From a bacterium (GTDB lineage Bacteria; Patescibacteriota; Patescibacteriia; JAGPKW01): 45,959 nucleotides of DNA. The notes beneath the pieces are model-generated. The model searched no databases and was not told the origin of the DNA. It worked only from the letters and a program-made list of their open reading frames with translations. The position numbers and the translations under genes are program-made. Location: positions 367,923 through 413,881 of the forward strand of contig JAJXYN010000009.1 in the NCBI GenBank assembly GCA_021780535.1, written 5' to 3'. Every line of letters starts with the position of its first letter. Position 1 is the stretch's first letter. Of the stretch, positions 31,675 to 45,959 are shown piece by piece.

Positions 31675-33027
31675 ATGTCTGATTTTTTAATTAAAATTAA
31701 GTTATTTTTTCTTAATATTTTTGACAAAATTCTTGTATTTTTAAATAAAATAGCAAGATTTTTTAAGTTTTTATTTATAGATATATTTTATGGAAAAATA
31801 TTGTTTAATTTATTTTTTCTTCCTTTATATAAAATATATAAAAAACTTGTTAGAGATATAATCGTCCAAAACAATCTGCAGTTAAATTTACTTGGCAGAA
31901 TGTTTGCTGTTTTATTTAATAAAAAAATTGTTGGTTTGGTTATAGTTTTTCTTATTTTTTCTTGGGTTATTGTAGATAATGTGAGGGTTTATAGTATATA
32001 TGATAAAGAGTTAAAACTTAATAATAGTATATTTTTTATTCTTGCTGGAGATAATTCAAATATAGACTCTGTTATTGTTGATAATACTGTTATAGGTAAA
32101 AAAAATAATCCAAAAAACGGATCTTATTTATCCCAAGGTGATATAAGTGTTGATGTTAAATCAGATTTTGTTCCTATTGATCCCGAAGATATAACTTATT
32201 TTACTTTTAATAATGGCTCTGTTGTTAAACCACAAATAATGAATTATCCAGGATCTTCTACTGGTGATTCTACTGTTATTGTGGATAATAGTAATGATAA
32301 TTCTAGATTTGCTTCTAAAGTTATTTATGTTGTTAGAAGTGGAGATACTCTTGCTGGTGTTGCTAAAAGTTTTGGTGTTAGTAAAGATACTGTTTTATAT
32401 GAAAACAAAATGAATGAAGGAGATGTTTTAAAGATTGGTCAAAAACTTTCTATTTTACCATTCACTGGGTTAAGTTATAAAGTTGAATATGGAGACACTC
32501 TTCTTGATTTATCAATTAAATACAATGCTTCCTTGGATAAAATTAGACAATATAATTTTATAAGAGGGGATGTATTAAGACTTGGACAAACACTTATTAT
32601 TCCTACAACCAGTATTCCTAGATATTCTAATATTGCTATTAGACCTGTTAGAAAGAATTCCTCAATTAGTATTCTTTATCCAAATGTTTCTCCTATACAG
32701 GGTGATGGTAGTGATTTGGAGGCTCACAAGTTTCCTTATGGTCAATGTACTTGGTATGTTGCTACTAGAAGATTTGTTCCTTGGGGTGGTAATGCTAAAA
32801 GTTGGCTTCTTAATGCACAAAGATATGGTTATGATATTGGTAAAAAACCAGTTATTGGCGCTATTGTTGTTACAAGGGAAAATGCTTTATACGGTCATGT
32901 TGCTTATGTTGAAGATGTTACGAGTGATGTGATAGTTATTTCTGAAATGAATTTTAGAGGTTGGGGTGTTGTTGATAAGAGAGAACTATCTATTGATGAT
33001 TGGAGAATTTTGGGATATATATATTAA
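31675..33027 (+). CDS. Membrane-anchored LysM (x2) + CHAP domain peptidoglycan hydrolase
   Basis: N-terminal TM; LysM VRSGDTLAGVAKSFGVSKDTVLYENKM and VEYGDTLLDLSIKYNASLDKIRQYN; CHAP YGQCTWYVA...GHVAYVEDV. Confidence 0.92.
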   Translation: MSDFLIKIKLFFLNIFDKILVFLNKIARFFKFLFIDIFYGKILFNLFFLPLYKIYKKLVRDIIVQNNLQLNLLGRMFAVLFNKKIVGLVIVFLIFSWVIVDNVRVYSIYDKELKLNNSIFFILAGDNSNIDSVIVDNTVIGKKNNPKNGSYLSQGDISVDVKSDFVPIDPEDITYFTFNNGSVVKPQIMNYPGSSTGDSTVIVDNSNDNSRFASKVIYVVRSGDTLAGVAKSFGVSKDTVLYENKMNEGDVLKIGQKLSILPFTGLSYKVEYGDTLLDLSIKYNASLDKIRQYNFIRGDVLRLGQTLIIPTTSIPRYSNIAIRPVRKNSSISILYPNVSPIQGDGSDLEAHKFPYGQCTWYVATRRFVPWGGNAKSWLLNAQRYGYDIGKKPVIGAIVVTRENALYGHVAYVEDVTSDVIVISEMNFRGWGVVDKRELSIDDWRILGYIY

Positions 33028-33312: not shown

Positions 33313-34224
33313 ATGGATTTACTTGAGCGAACTCTTGATCTTTGTAAGTTATATAAAATTGTTCCTAATAAACTTTTGGGGCAGAATTTTTTAATTAATG
33401 AGTTTGTTCTTGATGATATTATTTCTAATGTTGAGGAGATTAAAAAAGAAAGAAATGTTAAGAAATTAAATATTTTGGAAATTGGTGGTGGTTTTGGTGT
33501 TTTAACCAATAGATTGGTGGGTATTGCTGACAAGGTTTTTCTTATAGAAAAAGATGAAAAACTTTTTGAGGGTCTTTTAAAGATTGAAAAAAGCTTTCCT
33601 GGTAGATTGAAAGTTGTTCTAGATGATGCATTAAAATTGGGAGATGTTGAGAAGCGAAATGATGGAGATATTGAGAATAATGATTTGTTAATTGATAAAG
33701 TTAAGGAGTTTTTTGGTGGAGAAGAATTTTTTGTTGTTGCTAATATTCCTTATTCTATTACTTCTCATATTATTAGAATACTTTTAGAGATTACTTATAG
33801 CCCTGCGGAAATTATTATAATGATTCAAAAAGAAGTTGCAGAGAGAATATGTGCTAAAGATGGTGACGATAGTGTGCTTTCTATTTCTGCGAAATTTTAT
33901 TCTTTTCCTTCTATTTTATTTTTAGTTTCTAAAGATTGTTTTTACCCAGTTCCTGCTGTTAATTCAGCTGTTATTAGATTGTCTAAAAATAATAAATTAA
34001 AAATTTCTAATAAAAAAGATATTGATAATTTTTTTAAATTTATTAAATCTGGTTTTTCTAATAAAAGAAAAATGCTTTATCATAATATAGCTTCTATTTA
34101 CAGAAAAGATAAAGATATTGTTAAAAAAATATTAATAAATTCAAGTTTATCAGATAAAACCAGGGCTCAAGATTTGTGTTTGGATGATTGGCTTAGGTTG
34201 TGGTATAATTTTAATAGATATTGA
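33313..34224 (+). CDS. rsmA: 16S rRNA (adenine1518-N6/adenine1519-N6)-dimethyltransferase
   Basis: IVPNKLLGQNFLINEFVLDDII, ILEIGGGFGVLTNRL, VANIPYSITSHIIRILLE, PVPAVNSAVIRL. Confidence 0.95.
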   Translation: MDLLERTLDLCKLYKIVPNKLLGQNFLINEFVLDDIISNVEEIKKERNVKKLNILEIGGGFGVLTNRLVGIADKVFLIEKDEKLFEGLLKIEKSFPGRLKVVLDDALKLGDVEKRNDGDIENNDLLIDKVKEFFGGEEFFVVANIPYSITSHIIRILLEITYSPAEIIIMIQKEVAERICAKDGDDSVLSISAKFYSFPSILFLVSKDCFYPVPAVNSAVIRLSKNNKLKISNKKDIDNFFKFIKSGFSNKRKMLYHNIASIYRKDKDIVKKILINSSLSDKTRAQDLCLDDWLRLWYNFNRY

Positions 34225-34312: not shown

Positions 34313-35305
34313 ATGGATATTAGTAAGATTAAAAAATATTTTGTTGATTTTTATAATGATTTTAAGCATGATGAACAAAAAAGAAATAGAGTTTTGATTT
34401 TGTTTTTGATTTTTATTGGAGCATGTTCTGTCGTCCTTGGTTTTTCTAATACTAAGCAGAACATTAAAAAGCCTTTTATTGATGAGAATGCTGATGCGGT
34501 TTCTAGTGTATATGATACATATAATAAATTAAAAGCTCAGGGTAAGATAGTGGATGATACTACTGGTGCTAATACTACCAATACTACCAATACTATTACT
34601 ACTAATAGTACAAACAACACAAACACATCTAATACTAGTGTTCCATATCCTGGCTTTCCATCTAAAACAGTGGATACTGATGGAGATGGTCTTTCTGATT
34701 ATGATGAAGTAAACGTCTTCCACACATCTCCATTTTTAGCTGATAGTAATAGTGATGGTATTAATGATTATGACTCTATTAAAAGAGGTATAGATCCAAA
34801 TGCTATCAATGCTAATTCAAATACTATTACTAATACTCCTACTACAAATACTACTACTAATAACAATAGCGCAACTACTATTGCGAACACCATTGATCCA
34901 ACCAAGATAGATGTTGCACAAGCCAGAATTGAACTTGCTAAAATAATTCCTGAAAGTTTAAAACCAATGCTTGCCAATATGACCGATGATCAAATAAAAT
35001 CTCTTATGTCTCAATTATATTCAGGTACAGTTACTCCTAATAATACTTCTACAAATGTGGTATCAACTAATAATGCTACTACTAATACTAATACGACGAA
35101 TAATACAAATATTAATACAATTACTGATTATAAATCCGTGTTAAAATCTAAATTGCCGCAATTTACTGTTGCTCAAATATCAACTATAAAAGCAATGAAT
35201 GAAATTGATATTAAAAAATTGTTGTTAGATTCTAATGTTGCAGATGAATCTTTGCTTTCCCAATTTAAAACAGGGGAATTAAAAAGTACGGTTTTGGGAG
35301 AATAG
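34313..35305 (+). CDS. Membrane-anchored protein with thrombospondin type 3-like Ca-binding motif and Asn/Thr-rich linkers
   Basis: N-terminal TM (VLILFLIFIGACSVVLGF); DTDGDGLSDYDEVNVFHTSPFLADSNSDGINDYDSIKRGIDPN; T/N repeats. Confidence 0.75.
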   Translation: MDISKIKKYFVDFYNDFKHDEQKRNRVLILFLIFIGACSVVLGFSNTKQNIKKPFIDENADAVSSVYDTYNKLKAQGKIVDDTTGANTTNTTNTITTNSTNNTNTSNTSVPYPGFPSKTVDTDGDGLSDYDEVNVFHTSPFLADSNSDGINDYDSIKRGIDPNAINANSNTITNTPTTNTTTNNNSATTIANTIDPTKIDVAQARIELAKIIPESLKPMLANMTDDQIKSLMSQLYSGTVTPNNTSTNVVSTNNATTNTNTTNNTNINTITDYKSVLKSKLPQFTVAQISTIKAMNEIDIKKLLLDSNVADESLLSQFKTGELKSTVLGE

Positions 35306-35372: not shown

Positions 35373-35504
35373 TATTTAATTGATATATTTATTAATTAAA
35401 TATTTTTTAACTTTTGAATTATTTACAAATGTTTTTTCCACAGTAATTATTATTAATTTTATGATATAATTTAGTCAAATGTTAATTTTTATACTCCTAC
35501 AAAA

Positions 35505-38072
35505 ATGTCCCAAAAAATAAACAAAAAAGGTTTACTAAAAAGAAAATTTATTTCTGGTTTTCTTTTAATTTCTTTTGTATTTTCTCAGATTTTAATTCCA
35601 ACAAAGCAAGTTGAAGCTTTGGATATTAATCAAATGATTGCAAATATAATGAGTGTCACAAAAGGAATAAGTGATGCAATAGAGAAAGTAGGAGGTGGGG
35701 TTCTTAAGGCTGGTGTTGCTACAGCTCTTAATACTTTTGCTCAAAACTTGGCCACAAGTACAGTGACTGGTATGGCTACTGGTAATTGGGGCTCTCAACC
35801 TTTATTCTTTCAGTTTCCATTAGAAGATATGTTAAAACAAGTGGCAGATCAAGCTACTGGGGATTTTCTTGATAAAATCGTAGCACAAACAGGATTTGAT
35901 GTGTGTAAACCTATTGATGCTGACTTAAATTGGAAATTTAAGCTTCTTTTAAATATTGTGGCTTCGCCTACGCAAGAAACTATTACACCACCAACATGTA
36001 CTCTTTCTAAATTTGTTGATGCTGTTAATCAAAGTTTTGAAAATATTTCTACAACTTTAAGAAAGACTTTTGCGGCTGATTGTTTTGATGAATTTAAACC
36101 AGTTTCTATTGCTGGTATATCAACTTCTGATATTAATAATAATAATTCTGGTTTGAGTAATAATATTTCGTCTAGTGTAAATAGTGCTGCAGATAATGTT
36201 ATAGATTCTGTTTATACTGCTGGCGGTGCTTTTGCTAGTTTTACATATGAAGGATTAAAAGATTATTATTTATATAATGTTGCTTCTTTAACTAGCCCTG
36301 CAAAAGCAGAAGCTTCTTATTTTTCAAAAAAAAGCAATTTATTATAAACAACAAAATATAAATCCGAAATGCACTTCTTATGCAGCTACTACTTGTGATG
36401 AATATGATATAACAACAACTACTGATAGCAACGGAGTTCAAACAACAACAAGGGGTGATTGTAAAGCTGGACATATGGTTCCTGGATCTTATCTTTGCAA
36501 AACAACAGAAGAACCAAATGCTAATAAAACAACTAACTGTGTTACAGATGCCTTAAATACTGTAACTCTTGATGTTGTTGGAACTTCCGCGGCTATTAAT
36601 CAAGGTAATTGTATTTCATATACGTTGCCAGATAAAACTTCTACTGGAGCTTATGTTGCTGATATTACTAAACAAAAAAAGTTTTTAACTCAGTATAAGA
36701 GTTGTTTTCTGACAAAAATGGCATCAACATTTAAAGGATTAATTGAAACCGGAACATTACCAAAACAAGAAATCCAAGCTCAAAAAGCTAAGCAGGATTG
36801 TGCTAGTATTGTTGATTCATTAATAACTTATAGTAATGATGGTGGTAATAAAAATGCGGCAGAATTCTATGGTGCTTATGATGTAGAATTTAAAAATAAT
36901 TTTTGGGATAAGGGTTTAGTATTAGGTAAGGATAATCCAGATTTATATAAAAAAGTTATAAGAGCTGCATTACTTTCTAAAACTGCTGGAATGTATAATG
37001 CTAATGGATTAATGTTTTCTGGATATTTGAAATCTCATATGAGTCTTTTTGGCCCATTTGAACAAGCTCTTGTTAATTGCTCTAGTGTTAGTAATAGTAA
37101 TTCTGGTTCACTTATTTCTATGCAGTGTGGATCTGAAAAAGATAGTAATAATGATGGAGTAATAGATTCTAATGATACAAACTTATCTCAAACAACGACT
37201 GCAAGTAATTTTTATAGTCCTTTTATTGGTTTAATGATTAAGAGTTTGCCATCAGATTCTTCTGGTACTATTTTTGTGGATGATATAAATAATCCAACTA
37301 CTCTTTATATTAATGAAGATGGTGGATTATGGTTTAGTTTAATAACAAATGGCAATTTAACTGATGATAATTCTAAAATTTTAAATATTAGAGATGATTT
37401 GATTAATGTTTGTGAGTTTAATGCTCAAAATCAAGTTGCTGCTATGGGATATGTTCAAACATTAGCTAACCAAGATTATATAGATAAAACAAATGAAAAA
37501 AACTTCTTGATATTCAAAATCAACAAGATATAATTAAAGCTGATGTTGCTAAGAGTGATGTTAAACCTGTTAGTGAGCCTATTAGTCATGAAATAAAATC
37601 TACTCCTGGTATGGTTACATTTAATCTTGAAGAGGCTTTGGGTTCTGGCAAACAAATGTTACAACCTACTGGAGATTTATTTATAGATCCTATTAAACTT
37701 TTTGTTACAACTCTTCTTAGTGAGGGTTCAAAAAAACTTATGCAAGGTTTATTTTCTAGAGCATTCCCAACTACTGGCGTTGATCAAGACCTTTCTGCTT
37801 TAAATGGAATACAAACAGCTCCTGATGTAACTAATACCTCAACTACTTCTTCTGATACTGGTAACACTTCTTCTACTTCTTCCGGAACTGGTAATGGACA
37901 AACAACTACAAATCTTTGTACTGTACCTGGGCCTTTGAATGTTGGAGATGTTTGTATTGTTGACGGTAAATTTAATAATGGAGCTTGTAAAACATGTTAC
38001 TGTGAGTCTAAAGTTGGTATAACTAATGCTGCTGGAATTACTACATATGGAACGTGTCAACAAAAACAATAA
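35505..38072 (+). pseudogene. Secreted/membrane protein gene interrupted by two compensating frameshifts (ORFs 35505-36347, 36475-37533, 37611-38072); may still be functional by slippage or be an assembly artefact
   Basis: Signal-like N-terminus KFISGFLLISFVFSQILIPTKQVEA. Reading continues at A8 (36326-36333) with one A removed (SYFSKKAIYYKQQNINPKCTSYAATTCDEYD...) and at A7 (37496-37502) with one A added (NEKKLLDIQNQQDIIKADVAKSDVKPVSEPISHEIKSTPGMVTF). First and third ORFs share a frame. Confidence 0.8.
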
Positions 38073-38090
38073 ATAATAAAATTATAAAAT

Positions 38091-41000
38091 ATGAGAATAT
38101 TAAAATATGAGAATATTAAAATATTGAAAAAAATGTTTTTCATTTTTGTATTTTTATATTCTTTGTTTGGTTTTAATTATTCTAGTGCTGATAGTATAAA
38201 ACCTTATTCAACACCATCTTCATGCTCTAGAGATTCAGAATGCGCTTCTATTTATGGTAGTGGTTCTTGTTGTATGGCTGATATATATTCTAATACATCG
38301 TTATTTAATTATTACGTTTGTATTTCTACTTCAAAAACAGTATCTTCTTGTTCTATGTACACTGGATCGGTTTCTAACAAATGTTGGCCAGACATTGTTT
38401 GCTCTAATGGTTTAGATTATGCTGTTGCTGGGATTGTTCCAATAAATGGATCTTGTGGGCCTGTTGTTGGTTTTGCTTCTTTGGTTGGTACTTCTATGGG
38501 AGTTTTAAATGATACTCGTATAACTACTAGTAATAAAAATAGTCAATTTTGTTCTACTGGGACAATGTCTTCTTCGGATCCAAAATTAAATACTGCTACA
38601 AAAATGTGGACATGGACATGTTCTGGTCAAAATAGTGGATCTAATGCTACTTGTTCTGTAAATTATTCAAGTGTCCCTAACTTACAAATAAATGGTGTTT
38701 GTCATGTTTATAGTTCTCCACTTATGGCTGAACCAACGGATCTTTGTGTATCTGGTGTTTCTGGAACTGTTGTTTTGAATGATGGTGTTTTTTCTTGGAC
38801 CTGCTCTGGTCAAAATGGTGGGGGTAGTGTTAGTTGTTCTGCTGATGCTAAAGCTACACCAATAATTGTTACACCGGAAGTAGATCCTTTTGCTACTTTA
38901 GTTAATGACCCATTAGTAAAACCAGCTACAAAAGATCAAACCGTTCAAACTGAAATTGTATCTTCTTATCCTACTATAGAACAAAAACCTGCAAATATTT
39001 CTAGTTATAGTTTGCTTGAAAAATATTCAACTCCTTGCTCTATTAAATTTGATTCGGAATGTGAAGTTTTAGATCAAAAACTTTTGGATGTTGTAAAGGC
39101 TGGTATGTCTATAAAAGACGCAGTTGATTCTGGAAAATTAAATGGTAATATGATGGTTGCTAGACTTAGTAATGATACTCCTCCAAAAGAACTTGATAAT
39201 TATAAGACGGGACTTACTTTAACTAACATACAAAAGCTTAGAAAGGCTAGAGTTTTTCCTGTTGGTATGGAATTAGCCGCTATGTGTATTACTGGACAAA
39301 TTCCTTGTTCAGATGGTTATATTTATAATGGCAATAGTACTGATACTGCTGATTGTCCTGATAAATCTGTGGCTTGTCATAAGGCAAGAATGAGCGATAT
39401 TACTTTAACTAGAATATTGACTGGATATTCTATCTGCGATCCTTTTGCTACTGGGTATAGTTCTAAAAATGATCCTTTTTGTCATTTGGTAAACCCTAAT
39501 TGGATATTAAAAGATCCAAAATATATGTGTGAGTCTGGTGTTAAAAATGGATCACTTCTTTATGTAACAGATCAGCAATCCCAATCTAATATTAGATATG
39601 AATCATGTCCAGATGTTTCTACTTGTTTAACCGAAAAAGATAATGGTGAATGTAATGCTTATGGATATTGTTTGAGAGAAAAAAATATTTGGAGATTTGA
39701 TTTGTCTGCAGATTCTTGTTTTAGTCAAAATGTTGGTTGTGCAAAATATACTTATGCTATGGGGGGCTCTACTACTACTCTTGGTTTTATTGCTGATACT
39801 ACTGATAAATCTGTTTGCGACCAGAGTAATAGTGGTTGTAGATCATATAGTTTGGTTAAAACTGGTTCTGCTTCTACTGATTGGAGTCATGATGATTCCG
39901 CTAAAATATTTTTAAATAACAAAATAACACCTTGTGATTCTTCTCAAGAGGGTTGTACGGCTTTTATAAGGAGAGATACTGCTAATTTGATTAAGAATTC
40001 AAGTTTTGAAGAATATAATCTTTCAGCAGATTTAACTACTAAACAAGCTTTGCTTTGGATACCTCATAATGATAAGCCATTATCTGATAGTGTTGATTTA
40101 GAAAGTACCGGGGATAATGCCCCTGTTTATGATGGCTCTAACTCTCTTGTAATGAAAAGACTGTCTTCTTCTGATGAAACTTCTTATGTTGGTTATAGTT
40201 TAAATAAAGATTATTTTATTGATGTTGAGCCAAATAAAACATATACTTTAAGCTATTATGTTTTAGGTTATAATACTAATTTCCCTGCGGATAGTATTTC
40301 TAAATATTCACAAGGAGCTTTTGTTAATGTTAAGGAATATGATCAATCTAAAAATTTAATAACTAAACAAGTTTGTACAAGCGGGGATGATACACTTTTA
40401 GGATCTGTTTGTAATTCTAATACTGATTGTATTGAAACTAATAACCCTAATAATAAAATCGGAGTTTGTGATTCTTCTTCTGCAAATAATATTATTGATA
40501 TAGATGCTTTGAGATATGTTAATACTTTTATGTCTCCTACATGGACAAGAAAAACAGTTTCTTTTAAGACTGGTCTTGATACTTATTATTTAGATATACT
40601 TCCTGTTTTGTCTAGAGTAAAAGCTGTAACGGATGATAATCCTGTGACTGCTGTTTTTGATGCTATTCAATTACAAGAGGGAAGTGTTGCTACTACATAT
40701 GCTTTATATGAAAATTCTAAGGTTAATTATTTAAAAAAAGCACCGGATTATGCTAATTGTTATTCTTCATCTTCTGATAAAGACAAAATATTTTGTAGTA
40801 ATTTTATAAAATCTTGTGATAAAAAAGATGTTGGCTGTAGAAAATATGAAAAGAAGGATAATTCTGATTATTGGTTGCCTGGTAAGCCGAATGAAGAAAA
40901 TTATTGTACGGCAGAATGTAAGGGTTATCAATTATATAAAGAATCTGGTCCTTCTTATGATCCTGCTATTGGATCTACTTTTCAATCTCTTATAGCTACA

Positions 41001-44000
41001 ACTGCTAAACCTTGTTCTTCTTCTGAAGCTGGCTGTTCTCAATATAAGAATTTATCTACTGGAGGGGATGAATATTTTTCTTCTATAAGGACTTGTGTTA
41101 AAGAAACAGATGATATAGGCACTTGTAAAAATGATGATTCTTTTAAGGGTAATATTTGTAAGTCTGATGCTGATTGTGGTGCTATTGTTGGTTCTTGTAG
41201 TAAAGCAACAGCTCAATATACTGATTATTTTACATATACTGGATCAGAAACTTCTGGATATAAGTTGAATGTTTATAGATTGCTTAGAACAAAAGCATGT
41301 AGTAATGATAAAACGGTGAAATGTTCCGTTGATTCTGATTGTGGTTCTGGAACATGTAGCTATTATGATGATGTTTATGATCCTGCTACTGTAGCTTCTA
41401 GTTCTTTTAATGCTTGTAATGCTGAGGCATATAAAAAACAAGATCATGACCCTGATTGTAGAGAATTTCATGGTCCTAGTGATGCTAGTTCTGCTTCTGG
41501 TGCAGCAACTGGTAACTATGTTCTTTACTATGCAAATATGAGTGAAGTTATTTATGTTTCAGATACAGATTGTTCTTATTATTCTATCGTGCCATATCAA
41601 AGTGTTGTTTCTCAATCTAAATGTGATTCTATATCTTACTTAACTACAGGTTTGAGATATAATACTTCTACTAATACTTGTAATATAGGTATATATATTC
41701 CAGAATCTGTAACGTGTTCTAGTGATGTTTTGAATTGTAGAGAATATAATGGTACTTCTATATCGTCAGAAACATTATTTACTGATGGTTTTGAAGATGG
41801 TGCAGATGGTTGGAAGAATAGTGCAGGAAATGCTCCTACAATATCAACTGAATCTATTTTCGTTAATGAACATTCTGCTAAAATTGCTTATCCTGATTAT
41901 ATAAGTAAGGTTGTTGTTCCTGATATTATTGATCCAAAAGAAAAAGCTCTTTATAAGTTAAGATTGTATGCTAAGAATGATTCTGCAAATGGTACTTTAT
42001 CTTCTGTGGAGCTTAGAGTTGGAGATACTTTTGTTAGTACAAAACAAATTAATAATGATTGGAAATTTATTGGTTTTGATGTTTTCTCATCTTCTAATTT
42101 AACAACTGTTCTTAATAGTATTCAGATTAGTAATAAAGGTTTGGTAAATAATGGTGGAGCTGTTAATTTGTTTGTTGATTATATATCAGTAGAAAAATCA
42201 TCATCTATTTATGTTATTAAAAATTCTTGGACAACTCCTGTAAGTTGCGATAATGATATAAGTAATCCTACTGGTGCTTGTAATGCTGAAGGTGTTGCTA
42301 ATGGTTTTTGTACTATGGTTCCAAATAAAGTTTGTTTAACTGGAACTAATGTTGGAGCTGTTTGTACTGATGCTACTGTTGCTGCTGATTGTGGAGATGT
42401 AACGGATACTTGTACTTATGCTAATAAGGTTTGTAGATGGGGTGATAATAAAAATTCTTCATGTAATAGTGATGATGATTGTTACAATAACCCTACTGAT
42501 CCTGTTAATGTGGCGGTAAAAACCGGTTCTTGTTTCTATACTACTAATGGGTATAGATTAAATTTAGGAAAAATGATTGGTTGTGATGAATATATTGATT
42601 CTTATAGTAATGATGAGTTTTATGTATTTAACGATTTGAATTTGTGTAGTGCTGACAAGATGGGTTGTGAAGCTCTTTATGATACGAAAAATTCAAAAAG
42701 TTATCAAAGTCAAGAATTTAATAAAAACGTAGATTATTCTAGTGTTGTTGCTTATTATACTTTTGATGATAAAAACAATATTGCAAAAAATGATTTTTCA
42801 TCTAATTTAATGACAAATAATAATAATGTTGTTTATGTTAAAGATGGAGTTTCTGCTGGCGCAGCCTTATTTAATGGGACTAATAATATTTCTGAAGTTA
42901 TTAATGATTCATTAAAATCAGTTACTTCTAATGTGTCTATTTATTCTTGGGTTAGACCAAATTCTTTTGGAGGTTCAATAGTTTCTCTTGGAAATTATTA
43001 TAATTTATCTATTCTTCCTGATGGAGAAGTACAATGCGTATTTAATAATGATAATACTCAATTATTAAAATCAGGTTCTAATTATTTGCTAACACTTAAT
43101 AAGTGGCAAAATGTTCTTTGTGTATATGATGGAGATAGAATAAAAATGTATATTAATGGTGAACTTGTTTCTTCTTCTGGAGATGTAACTATGAATTTCA
43201 ATTATGGAACAGATGCAACTTCTTTACTTAAAATTGGTTCTGGACTTGTAGGAAGTATTGATGATTTGAGAATATATAGTAAGTTTTTTGATTCTAAAGC
43301 CGCTTATGATTCTTATAATGATTATAAAGATAATTATACCGTAGGAGCTGATGAACTTGGTTATTATATTATTGATAGTAATTATTCTTGTGATGCTAAA
43401 TATAAGGGTTGTACGGCTGTTGGAAGAAGTGACGATAGATATGATTCTCCTGATTTTGATTATTCAACTGCATATTTTGTTATAGACCCTGATAAATTTA
43501 AATCGTCTGGAAATTATTCAACTACAGGTGTTTATGATGCTACTATGTGTACAGCAGAAGAGGCAGGATGTTATTCTTTCCAAGATTCTAAAGGTGCTAG
43601 TGTTAATTTTAAATTTCCAAAATCGCTTTGTGTTTATAAAACAAATGTTGATGTTGGTGTTTCTGATACAAATACAGGAACCCCAAAACTTCAAACAGGT
43701 TGGTTTAAATATGATGTTAAATCTAAATCTATTTCTGATGAAGGTTGTTATTATGCTGATGTTTTAGGTAGTAATACAGATGCGACTTCTGTAAGTGCTG
43801 CGAAAATAAACCCTGATTCATATAAAATAGTTAAAGCTTCTGATTGTGAATATAGAAAAGATCCTGTTGTAATTAGGAGAACTTTTGAAAGTACCACAAC
43901 TAATGGTGTTACAACTACTACAACAAGACCAAAACAGACTACTTATTATATTTATACTGGAACATGTAGTGATGGTTCTGGTATAAATTGTAGTGATGAT

Positions 44001-45878
44001 ACTATGTGTAGTAGTGGATATTGTTTATTAGAAAGAACGAATACTAAATGTGCTTCTACTTCTGGAGATCCTTATTGTAAGCCTTATGGTTATGATGAAA
44101 ATCCTGGTATTATAGATCAATTTTCTAATAAATCTTTTGAATTTAATGTTTGTCAGGGTGGAAATAAGGTTGGTTCTTATTGCTCTGTTGATAATGATTG
44201 TCCTGGCTCAACTTGTGATGCCCCGTGGACTGTTATTGGTTGGTTTAAGAAAAATTCTACCAAAGGATGTTCGGATAATGGTTTAGAGTGTGTTGGTGGT
44301 ACAAAAACTGGAAATTCTTGTGTTTCTGATTCTGATTGTGTTGATAATAATGGTGTTGTTGATGGTGTTTGTAAAGATGTTATAGAAGCATCTGATTATA
44401 TGAGAAATTATAATGGAGCTGTTGGTATTTGTAATGAATATGATTGTACTAATTTTATTGAACCAACAGAAAAAAGTTGTAAAGCTGGTAATTTAGATGG
44501 ATATGATTGTTCTAGCGATAATGATTGTGGTGAGAATGGAGTTTGTGTAACAGATGATGTTAATGGTTCTAAATATTGTAAGGCTAAGGTTGATGGCACT
44601 CCTGTAAATAAGTTAAATCTTCCTTGTGTTTTTGATAAGGATTGTGGTTTTGGTGGTGTGTGTGTTGGTAATAATATTTATTCTTATATTAATAATAGTA
44701 AAATTAATAGTGCCGGATGTAATGGTAAGGTTTCTCGTGAATCCGGATGTGCTTTATTTGATGATACAAGTAATCCTTTATTAAATTTCTCTTCAAAATT
44801 AACTTATGCTGGAGTTAAAAATGGTATTGCTGTTTCGGCTGTTACTGGTGATAATTCTGGTGGTGATAGTCAAAAAGATTCTAATTTAATTATTAAAGTT
44901 AATCGTGATAGAGAATGTTCGGAATGGATAACTTTTGATAGTGCTGGATCTCCAACGAAGCAAGATTTTGATCCTGCTGCTGCCGATAGCACTAATAATA
45001 CTATGTCAACTTGTAAGGAATTATCTCAAAATAATAAATGTTTAGATGGTCAACATGGTAGTGGTTGGTCTGGTTCTCTTAGCACTGATTTTTATATAAA
45101 ACAGATGAATGGTAATTGGTTTAATGAGGATTTTTCTGGTATGGCCATTCCTCTTGAGCCTAGTATTGATAATAGTAGTTCTTCTTGGTGGAAGAATGCT
45201 TCTGTTGGTTCTAATTCTATATTGTCTAGTAATGCTAGTAATGCTGATCATGTTATTTGTAAATCTTATCCTGAAACTGATTCACCATTTAATTTTATTG
45301 ATAAATATAATTTAAATCTAGTTGATTGTACTTGTGATTCTACTATAAAAATAGGTGAACAATGTACTGCTTCTGGTAATGATAAGTGTTTGGCTATTAA
45401 TGGGAACCCTACAAAACTTTCATGGATTAATGGTAAAATAACCTATTTAACTTATGATCAGTTTAAAAGTTTAACTCCTAAAGATTATTTTAAAAATGTA
45501 AATAGTGGCATTACTATTCCTTATGCTACTAATTCTAGTGGCACAGAGAGTGACAAGCAGGCTCTTTATAGAATAGATAATAATCAAGATTGTTATTATC
45601 AAAAAGTAAATTATAAGGATGTTTTAAATCCTAGACAACAGTATTTTGGGAATGGACTTTCTTGGAATTTGCCGGCCAGTATTTATGTTGATTGTACTTC
45701 AAGCGATGTGGTTGATTGTAATGCAAAAAGTTTAGAATCTAAGGTTGCTGATTATACTGATAGTAAATTAAAATACAAAGGGTATTGTGCGGAATATGAT
45801 TATTCTCATGAGATATATTATCCTGGTTCTGGTAAGTATAATTGTCTTACATGGATTCCTGGTTTTATAAATCAATAA
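38091..45878 (+). CDS. Giant Cys-rich secreted protein with LamG-like domain and repeated Cys motifs
   Basis: 2595 aa; signal peptide-like KKMFFIFVFLYSLFGFNYSSADS; two N-terminal W(T/S)WTCSGQN(S/G)G..(S/A)(T/S)CS repeats; ~10 CxxxxxGCxxY-like motifs; ~9 GxxCxxDxDCxxGxC-like motifs; LamG-like VVAYYTFDDKNNIAKND...YSWVRPNSFGGSIVSLGNYY...KWQNVLCVYDGDRIKMYINGELVSS...IDDLRIYSK. Confidence 0.85.
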   Translation: MRILKYENIKILKKMFFIFVFLYSLFGFNYSSADSIKPYSTPSSCSRDSECASIYGSGSCCMADIYSNTSLFNYYVCISTSKTVSSCSMYTGSVSNKCWPDIVCSNGLDYAVAGIVPINGSCGPVVGFASLVGTSMGVLNDTRITTSNKNSQFCSTGTMSSSDPKLNTATKMWTWTCSGQNSGSNATCSVNYSSVPNLQINGVCHVYSSPLMAEPTDLCVSGVSGTVVLNDGVFSWTCSGQNGGGSVSCSADAKATPIIVTPEVDPFATLVNDPLVKPATKDQTVQTEIVSSYPTIEQKPANISSYSLLEKYSTPCSIKFDSECEVLDQKLLDVVKAGMSIKDAVDSGKLNGNMMVARLSNDTPPKELDNYKTGLTLTNIQKLRKARVFPVGMELAAMCITGQIPCSDGYIYNGNSTDTADCPDKSVACHKARMSDITLTRILTGYSICDPFATGYSSKNDPFCHLVNPNWILKDPKYMCESGVKNGSLLYVTDQQSQSNIRYESCPDVSTCLTEKDNGECNAYGYCLREKNIWRFDLSADSCFSQNVGCAKYTYAMGGSTTTLGFIADTTDKSVCDQSNSGCRSYSLVKTGSASTDWSHDDSAKIFLNNKITPCDSSQEGCTAFIRRDTANLIKNSSFEEYNLSADLTTKQALLWIPHNDKPLSDSVDLESTGDNAPVYDGSNSLVMKRLSSSDETSYVGYSLNKDYFIDVEPNKTYTLSYYVLGYNTNFPADSISKYSQGAFVNVKEYDQSKNLITKQVCTSGDDTLLGSVCNSNTDCIETNNPNNKIGVCDSSSANNIIDIDALRYVNTFMSPTWTRKTVSFKTGLDTYYLDILPVLSRVKAVTDDNPVTAVFDAIQLQEGSVATTYALYENSKVNYLKKAPDYANCYSSSSDKDKIFCSNFIKSCDKKDVGCRKYEKKDNSDYWLPGKPNEENYCTAECKGYQLYKESGPSYDPAIGSTFQSLIATTAKPCSSSEAGCSQYKNLSTGGDEYFSSIRTCVKETDDIGTCKNDDSFKGNICKSDADCGAIVGSCSKATAQYTDYFTYTGSETSGYKLNVYRLLRTKACSNDKTVKCSVDSDCGSGTCSYYDDVYDPATVASSSFNACNAEAYKKQDHDPDCREFHGPSDASSASGAATGNYVLYYANMSEVIYVSDTDCSYYSIVPYQSVVSQSKCDSISYLTTGLRYNTSTNTCNIGIYIPESVTCSSDVLNCREYNGTSISSETLFTDGFEDGADGWKNSAGNAPTISTESIFVNEHSAKIAYPDYISKVVVPDIIDPKEKALYKLRLYAKNDSANGTLSSVELRVGDTFVSTKQINNDWKFIGFDVFSSSNLTTVLNSIQISNKGLVNNGGAVNLFVDYISVEKSSSIYVIKNSWTTPVSCDNDISNPTGACNAEGVANGFCTMVPNKVCLTGTNVGAVCTDATVAADCGDVTDTCTYANKVCRWGDNKNSSCNSDDDCYNNPTDPVNVAVKTGSCFYTTNGYRLNLGKMIGCDEYIDSYSNDEFYVFNDLNLCSADKMGCEALYDTKNSKSYQSQEFNKNVDYSSVVAYYTFDDKNNIAKNDFSSNLMTNNNNVVYVKDGVSAGAALFNGTNNISEVINDSLKSVTSNVSIYSWVRPNSFGGSIVSLGNYYNLSILPDGEVQCVFNNDNTQLLKSGSNYLLTLNKWQNVLCVYDGDRIKMYINGELVSSSGDVTMNFNYGTDATSLLKIGSGLVGSIDDLRIYSKFFDSKAAYDSYNDYKDNYTVGADELGYYIIDSNYSCDAKYKGCTAVGRSDDRYDSPDFDYSTAYFVIDPDKFKSSGNYSTTGVYDATMCTAEEAGCYSFQDSKGASVNFKFPKSLCVYKTNVDVGVSDTNTGTPKLQTGWFKYDVKSKSISDEGCYYADVLGSNTDATSVSAAKINPDSYKIVKASDCEYRKDPVVIRRTFESTTTNGVTTTTTRPKQTTYYIYTGTCSDGSGINCSDDTMCSSGYCLLERTNTKCASTSGDPYCKPYGYDENPGIIDQFSNKSFEFNVCQGGNKVGSYCSVDNDCPGSTCDAPWTVIGWFKKNSTKGCSDNGLECVGGTKTGNSCVSDSDCVDNNGVVDGVCKDVIEASDYMRNYNGAVGICNEYDCTNFIEPTEKSCKAGNLDGYDCSSDNDCGENGVCVTDDVNGSKYCKAKVDGTPVNKLNLPCVFDKDCGFGGVCVGNNIYSYINNSKINSAGCNGKVSRESGCALFDDTSNPLLNFSSKLTYAGVKNGIAVSAVTGDNSGGDSQKDSNLIIKVNRDRECSEWITFDSAGSPTKQDFDPAAADSTNNTMSTCKELSQNNKCLDGQHGSGWSGSLSTDFYIKQMNGNWFNEDFSGMAIPLEPSIDNSSSSWWKNASVGSNSILSSNASNADHVICKSYPETDSPFNFIDKYNLNLVDCTCDSTIKIGEQCTASGNDKCLAINGNPTKLSWINGKITYLTYDQFKSLTPKDYFKNVNSGITIPYATNSSGTESDKQALYRIDNNQDCYYQKVNYKDVLNPRQQYFGNGLSWNLPASIYVDCTSSDVVDCNAKSLESKVADYTDSKLKYKGYCAEYDYSHEIYYPGSGKYNCLTWIPGFINQ

Positions 45879-45879
45879 G

Positions 45880-45918
45880 AAACAAAAATAAGATTAAAAA
45901 TAGTCTTATTTTTTGTTT
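45880..45918 (+). terminator. Rho-independent terminator after giant gene
   Basis: AACAAAAATAAGA-ttaaaaatag-TCTTATTTTTTGTTT. Confidence 0.7.
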
Positions 45919-45922
45919 AATT

Positions 45923-45949
45923 AAAAAACCAACCTTTTTAAGGGTTGGC
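45923..45949 (-). terminator. Minus-strand terminator of a gene outside the window
   Basis: Reverse strand GCCAACCC-ttaaaaa-GGTTGGTTTTTTAATT. Confidence 0.6.
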
Positions 45950-45959
45950 AAATCATATT

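Follow-up and report, generated by a model that had tools for sequence, protein, structure and literature searches.

The open reading frame at positions 38,091 to 45,878 of the forward strand encodes, as judged by sequence comparison, a lineage-specific version of a class-wide family of giant, secreted, cysteine-rich proteins, and the reading to which we give about even credence is that its product is associated with the T4SS, acts outside the cell in contact with the host in the manner of an adhesin, and has its cysteines oxidised by DsbA-like enzymes. The window, i.e. the whole stretch of DNA analysed, comprises 45,959 nucleotides of a patescibacterial contig. In the accessible part of the openly licensed literature, such a giant disulfide-rich secreted family has apparently not been described.

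Architecture of the giant protein

The frame runs uninterrupted for 2595 codons, as the initial annotation had it. The chance of such a stop-free run is about 10^-93 (stop triplets 7.9%, window 27% GC), and the homology search of other genomes found the protein conserved in relatives; thus, the ORF is real, and an assembly artefact or chance frame was rejected. The true start is uncertain (38091 or the in-frame ATG at 38133), since a 16-bp tandem repeat (38085-38124) spans the start codon. The gene and its features are as follows.

38091..45878, + strand: gene of the giant secreted Cys-rich protein, 2595 aa, 126 Cys, one frame from start to stop
38091..38192, + strand: signal-peptide-like N-terminus, aa 1-34 (sequence, hydropathy maximum; N-termini of relatives alike)
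38613..38822, + strand: two WTCSGQN[SG]G motifs, aa 175 and 236 (sequence)
38985..40010, + strand: family-defining core, the best-conserved Cys framework block, aa 299-640 (alignment A5, 33 sequences; class and phylum surveys)
39984..40706, + strand: predicted jelly-roll, carbohydrate-binding-module-like domain 1, aa 632-872 (AlphaFold model, Foldseek to CBM4/16/22; CBM_4_9 in relatives)
40638..41126, + strand: conserved CX5GC-type Cys block 2, aa 850-1012 (sequence alignment)
41763..42284, + strand: predicted jelly-roll-like domain 2, aa 1225-1398, kin of domain 1 (hhalign probability 95%, E 2e-8)
42903..43283, + strand: LamG / concanavalin-A-like domain, aa 1605-1731 (PF13385, E 1.7e-16)
45880..45918, + strand: intrinsic-terminator-like hairpin directly 3' of the stop (fold of 45876-45959, z-score -5.9)

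The N-terminus consists of a basic n-region followed by the hydrophobicity maximum of the protein, ending in SSA followed by DS, and hydropathy analysis found no second stretch of equal hydrophobicity elsewhere in the window protein. In most relatives, too, the N-terminus is hydrophobic and has an AxA-type site, which supports the signal peptide proposed earlier as a prediction. Two further descriptions had to be adjusted: both WTCSGQNGG repeats exist as motifs, but this exact form occurs only at aa 236, the one at aa 175 reading WTCSGQNSG; and the C-terminal third, which had been called very Cys-rich, is richer only slightly (4.5%, 4.6% and 5.4% Cys by thirds, from N to C), because the cysteines are distributed over the whole protein.

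The two putative jelly-roll domains, starting with NLIKNSSFEEYN at aa 632 and with TLFTDGFEDG at aa 1228, are mutually related by hhalign. In the AlphaFold model, of moderate overall confidence (pLDDT 71, pTM 0.49), domain 1 is a jelly roll matching the structures of CBM4/16/22 (Foldseek, target TM-scores up to 0.77), and Pfam CBM_4_9 (PF02018) is matched by 9 of 16 relatives; the window protein itself gave no CBM_4_9 match over the curated cut-off, so that its support comes from the relatives and the model. Unlike the known CBM_4_9 and CBM4, 16 and 22 domains, those of the giant are inserts within the Cys framework and have no enzyme attached. The LamG domain, also proposed there, was recovered at 61.2 bits (curated cut-off 27.6) as the sole Pfam match over cut-off in the window protein, and is present in 2 of the 16 members scanned. 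No catalytic, glycoside hydrolase, transport, toxic or enzymatic domain was found by Pfam in these 16 members, NCBIfam returned weak, unrelated matches only, and the PDB sequence searches with the giant core gave nothing convincing.

The window protein ends 11 residues past the start of a CLTWxP anchor. Most relatives possessing this anchor extend about 490-1045 aa beyond it, and a PKD-like DWGD motif is frequent in this extension; L067, an exception, is truncated by the end of its contig. The C-terminal PKD-like module was not found elsewhere in the genome by the profile A4, in a search of a 91% complete genome without positive control. Because of this, and of the terminator-like hairpin after the stop, the loss of the module from the window protein looks genuine at the sequence level.

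Distribution, cysteine framework and oxidation of the family

The window protein was matched in 50 of the 57 genomes searched, including its own; most intact relatives consist of one ORF of about 2000-3900 aa, their Cys content being 2.9-5.7%. By the core profile A5, built on the best-conserved block in the alignment of 33 sequences, the family occurs in 335 of 381 genomes of the class, which appears to be ABY1, and in 291 of the 319 good ones; in the phylum-wide sample of 380 genomes, it was found in all 33 of the same class and in 0 of 347 of other classes, class membership being counted from the VirB4 survey of the same sample. The check on phylogenetic distribution suggested earlier has thus yielded a class-restricted family. 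The assignment to ABY1 is inferred from the named relatives and the comF/recG/radA context: the VirB4 scan matched contigs named Falkow-, Buchanan-, Kerfeld-, Magasanik-, Uhr- and Komeilibacteria and BM507, the last being an ABY1 order (PMC11809585), and the ABY1 T4SS loci carry comF, recG and radA according to the accessible part of PMC12102498, a description that by inspection fits the unlabelled neighbour clusters of the giant loci. Near the giant of one member of the window's family (L051, G002:C5), a second large ORF of at least 1768 aa with 14 Cys was observed, which in part matches the window protein at its LamG region.

Among 16 aligned members, 47 of the 126 cysteines of the window protein are conserved in at least 85%, while 70 of 126 are conserved in less than 50%, and among the latter are those of lineage-specific inserts, which contain C..D.DC motifs (window protein 8, after shuffling 0.3). 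The CX5GC motif is found 5-11 times per family protein, vs about 0.1-1.1 expected after shuffling.

The initial annotation had remarked that no Dsb gene is visible in the window, which is true because the one DsbA-like (Thioredoxin_4) match of the genome, a membrane-anchored protein (at least 358 aa) bearing a CPYG motif, is encoded on another contig; Thioredoxin_4 was matched in 57/57 genomes. The concern about missing oxidation is answered by this protein in part, yet VKOR, the other target of the genome search then proposed and the candidate re-oxidant, was not found in the window's own genome. Enrichment of an MdbA-like oxidoreductase with VKOR among CPR bacteria has been reported (PMC6744442). 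In 9 loci the fetched stretch contains DsbA-like genes, whose products may act on both the giant and the pilins.

The T4SS neighbourhood and the N-terminal domain

The relatives share the gene order RsmA - TSP3 membrane protein - giant - VirB6 - (c4) - PrgI/VirB3 - VirB4 N-part - VirB4 - c8 - pilins - propeller protein - DsbA. The partners were identified by Pfam as TrbL/VirB6 (below cut-off), PrgI, the TraG-type VirB4 ATPase, T4SS_pilin and the DsbA-like thioredoxin; six aligned VirB4 members are 72-75% identical to the first sequence, and VirB4 occurs phylum-wide in 362 of 380 genomes. The TSP3 protein lies within 3 genes upstream of the giant in 34 of 37 loci and RsmA within 6 genes upstream in 31 loci. 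VirB6 is found within 3 genes downstream in 18 of the 30 loci with flank and is not that close in the other 12; in 5 more cases it was located at another place of the fetched stretch. The upstream part of the locus in the window is composed of the following.

31675..33027, + strand: membrane LysM-CHAP peptidoglycan hydrolase, VirB1-like candidate (PF01476, PF05257; cluster c14 in 9 loci)
33313..34224, + strand: RsmA/KsgA rRNA dimethylase, conserved locus flank (PF00398)
34313..35305, + strand: TSP3-repeat (calcium-binding type) membrane-anchored protein, usual upstream neighbour of the giant (PF18884)
35505..36347, + strand: signal sequence and first part of the helical N-terminal domain (NTD profile without the window's family, E 6.9e-31 on the open frame 35475-36347)
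36475..37533, + strand: insert region of the N-terminal-domain gene in shifted frame (frameshift near an A8 run at about 36328)
37611..38072, + strand: end of the N-terminal-domain gene, first frame again (NTD profile E 1.8e-13 on the open frame 37497-38072; frameshift near an A7 run at about 37500)

The window's genome agrees with the relatives in having RsmA and TSP3 upstream of the giant, but its VirB6-VirB4 genes are located on a separate contig (C7), with recA upstream, not adjoining the giant. On this contig VirB4 was matched by the profile A2, and the PrgI and VirB6 family profiles also match, so that MPF-FATA-like T4SS genes (VirB4/TraG-type ATPase, PrgI/VirB3) are present in the genome. 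It also has 11 T4SS_pilin (PF18895) matches on the contigs C1, C6, C8, C11 and C12, several of them clustered (C12, C1). T4SS pilins were found in 7/7 genomes tested; two near-complete genomes, G020 and G031, contain the giant and the pilins with no VirB4 match. Upstream of VirB6 in the window's genome (L099, 3681-6161), an 826-aa secreted protein was seen in which, by eye, a right-handed beta-helix-like part comes after a C39-like peptidase.

In other families the giant begins with a helical N-terminal domain, which in the window's family is a separate upstream gene. This split is common to the family, since in its two other members, G001 and G002, an intact single ORF of 748 and 674 aa, respectively, stands before a separate giant. 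The two frameshifts, both near A-runs, occur in the window alone, where either sequencing errors or gene decay may account for them.

Most of the other-class loci read have a gene before VirB6 whose product is shorter (about 360-820 aa) and poor in Cys. In four of these loci (E 7e-17 to 8e-7, 1057 proteins), the NTD profile, trained without the window's family, matched either this slot protein or its immediate upstream neighbour; a further match in L129 (E 9e-13) was dropped because it was not recovered by this profile. Read most simply, these sequence matches would point to an ancient component linked to the T4SS that was extended in ABY1 by a giant extracellular tail. The identity of the N-terminal domain with the VirB5 pilus tip is unsupported, no VirB5/T4SS family being among the Pfam matches of 30 members; its low-confidence model matched no PDB structure at E <= 0.001, and PDB sequence searches with the domain gave nothing convincing. 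In another-class genome (G078; L218, 12428-18308, reverse complement), a different secreted protein of 1959 aa with 27 Cys was observed before VirB6 and after a TSP3-like protein.

Possible role at the cell surface

In the proposed mechanism, the ORF would encode the ABY1-class version of a secreted protein of the patescibacterial chromosomal T4SS locus, whose helical N-terminal domain would fill the slot beside VirB6, retained in several classes of the phylum. To this ABY1 would have added a very large extracellular tail with dozens of conserved cysteines, repeated CX5GC motifs and sugar-binding-type jelly rolls, with LamG in some lineages and the C-terminal PKD-like module in most. Export would be through Sec, DsbA-like thioredoxins would form the disulfides, and the giant would remain on the cell surface near the T4SS, with which it may be in contact or on which it may depend, and there it may bind glycans of the partner cell and stabilise the contact, in a role analogous to that of PrgB or TraN in conjugation. 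It is a good candidate for the host-cell contact part because it is near class-wide, disulfide-rich, secreted and usually encoded beside T4SS genes. Accordingly, from the earlier notion of an extracellular adhesin in need of disulfides, the extracellular, multi-domain, disulfide-dependent and adhesin-like character is supported by sequence, relatives and model, and adhesion itself is what we infer. The sequences themselves establish the family and its cysteine framework, domains, export signal and class restriction, together with its T4SS linkage in many genomes.

The suggested resemblance to known contact proteins is one of architecture and context. The PrgB-like adhesins of Gram-positive conjugation (MPF-FATA T4SS) are, like the giant, large secreted multi-domain surface proteins encoded with the same type of monoderm T4SS, whereas the giant is Cys-rich and without a visible anchor, and no PrgB family or domain set was found in it (Pfam, 16 members; NCBIfam). 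TraN, the contact adhesin of F-type conjugation, which has about 600 aa and sits in the outer membrane of diderms, is, like the giant, a Cys-rich extracellular protein linked to a T4SS with pilins; no match between the two was found. The predicted giant adhesion proteins of Patescibacterium danicum and other Patescibacteria are also of ABY1 bacteria; the survey describing them counts proteins above 4000 aa, which lack full-length homologues and many of which have FhaB or DUF2341 domains (PMC11809585), whereas the present family is of 2000-3900 aa, Cys-rich and class-wide, with CBM-like domains.

In the accessible part of PMC12102498, the T4SS genes are reported as essential for the epibiotic growth of a Saccharimonadia strain, and this 2025 survey of patescibacterial T4SS found no PrgB-type adhesin in the phylum; these passages do not mention the giant. 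A tentative extension, to which we give less credence than to the host-contact reading itself, is that ABY1 joined a giant glycan-binding module framed by disulfides to a small helical part of the ancestral secretion machine, a fusion that would be the class-specific host-recognition part of the patescibacterial T4SS and the adhesin not found by the earlier survey. Against the host-contact reading count the unlinked T4SS core in the window's genome, the 12 of 30 loci without close VirB6, the two genomes without VirB4 match, and the freshwater ABY1 cells of one family reported as unattached to other cells (PMC9166423). Moreover, the giant locus lies in a housekeeping cluster, and therefore the neighbourhood alone could be chance retention.

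The same unlinked core and VirB4-less genomes would suit a class-specific surface scaffold or coat, exported and disulfide-bonded, which structures or protects the envelope with no direct part in the T4SS, its gene being merely in a stable cluster; that the giant is near-universal, long even in reduced genomes and shows no catalytic domain in Pfam also agrees with this explanation. We nevertheless regard it as rather unlikely, since the low conservation outside the Cys framework and the variable inserts, such as LamG, suit a recognition surface better than a lattice, and the homologues of the N-terminal domain keep the slot beside VirB6 in other classes. The CBM-like and LamG domains, together with some ABY1 cells seen on lake snow (PMC9166423), could instead indicate binding of glycans or particles for feeding or attachment to aggregates, not to a living host, which is improbable in view of the T4SS linkage in many genomes and of the lack of glycoside hydrolase or transport domains among the 16 members in Pfam. 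That the T4SS delivers the giant as an effector, to the surface or the interior of the partner cell, might be suggested by its place beside T4SS genes in many loci but is very improbable for a heavily disulfide-bonded giant that would hardly fit through the channel, has a Sec-type signal sequence and in which Pfam and NCBIfam found no toxic or enzymatic domain.

For the question of how the ultra-small Patescibacteria recognise and exploit their partner cells, a near-universal, class-specific giant at the T4SS locus, read here as a host-contact protein, offers a concrete ABY1 candidate for localisation and binding tests. The family is also usable as a class marker, and the slot RsmA - TSP3 - X - VirB6 may point to the matching contact proteins in other classes.
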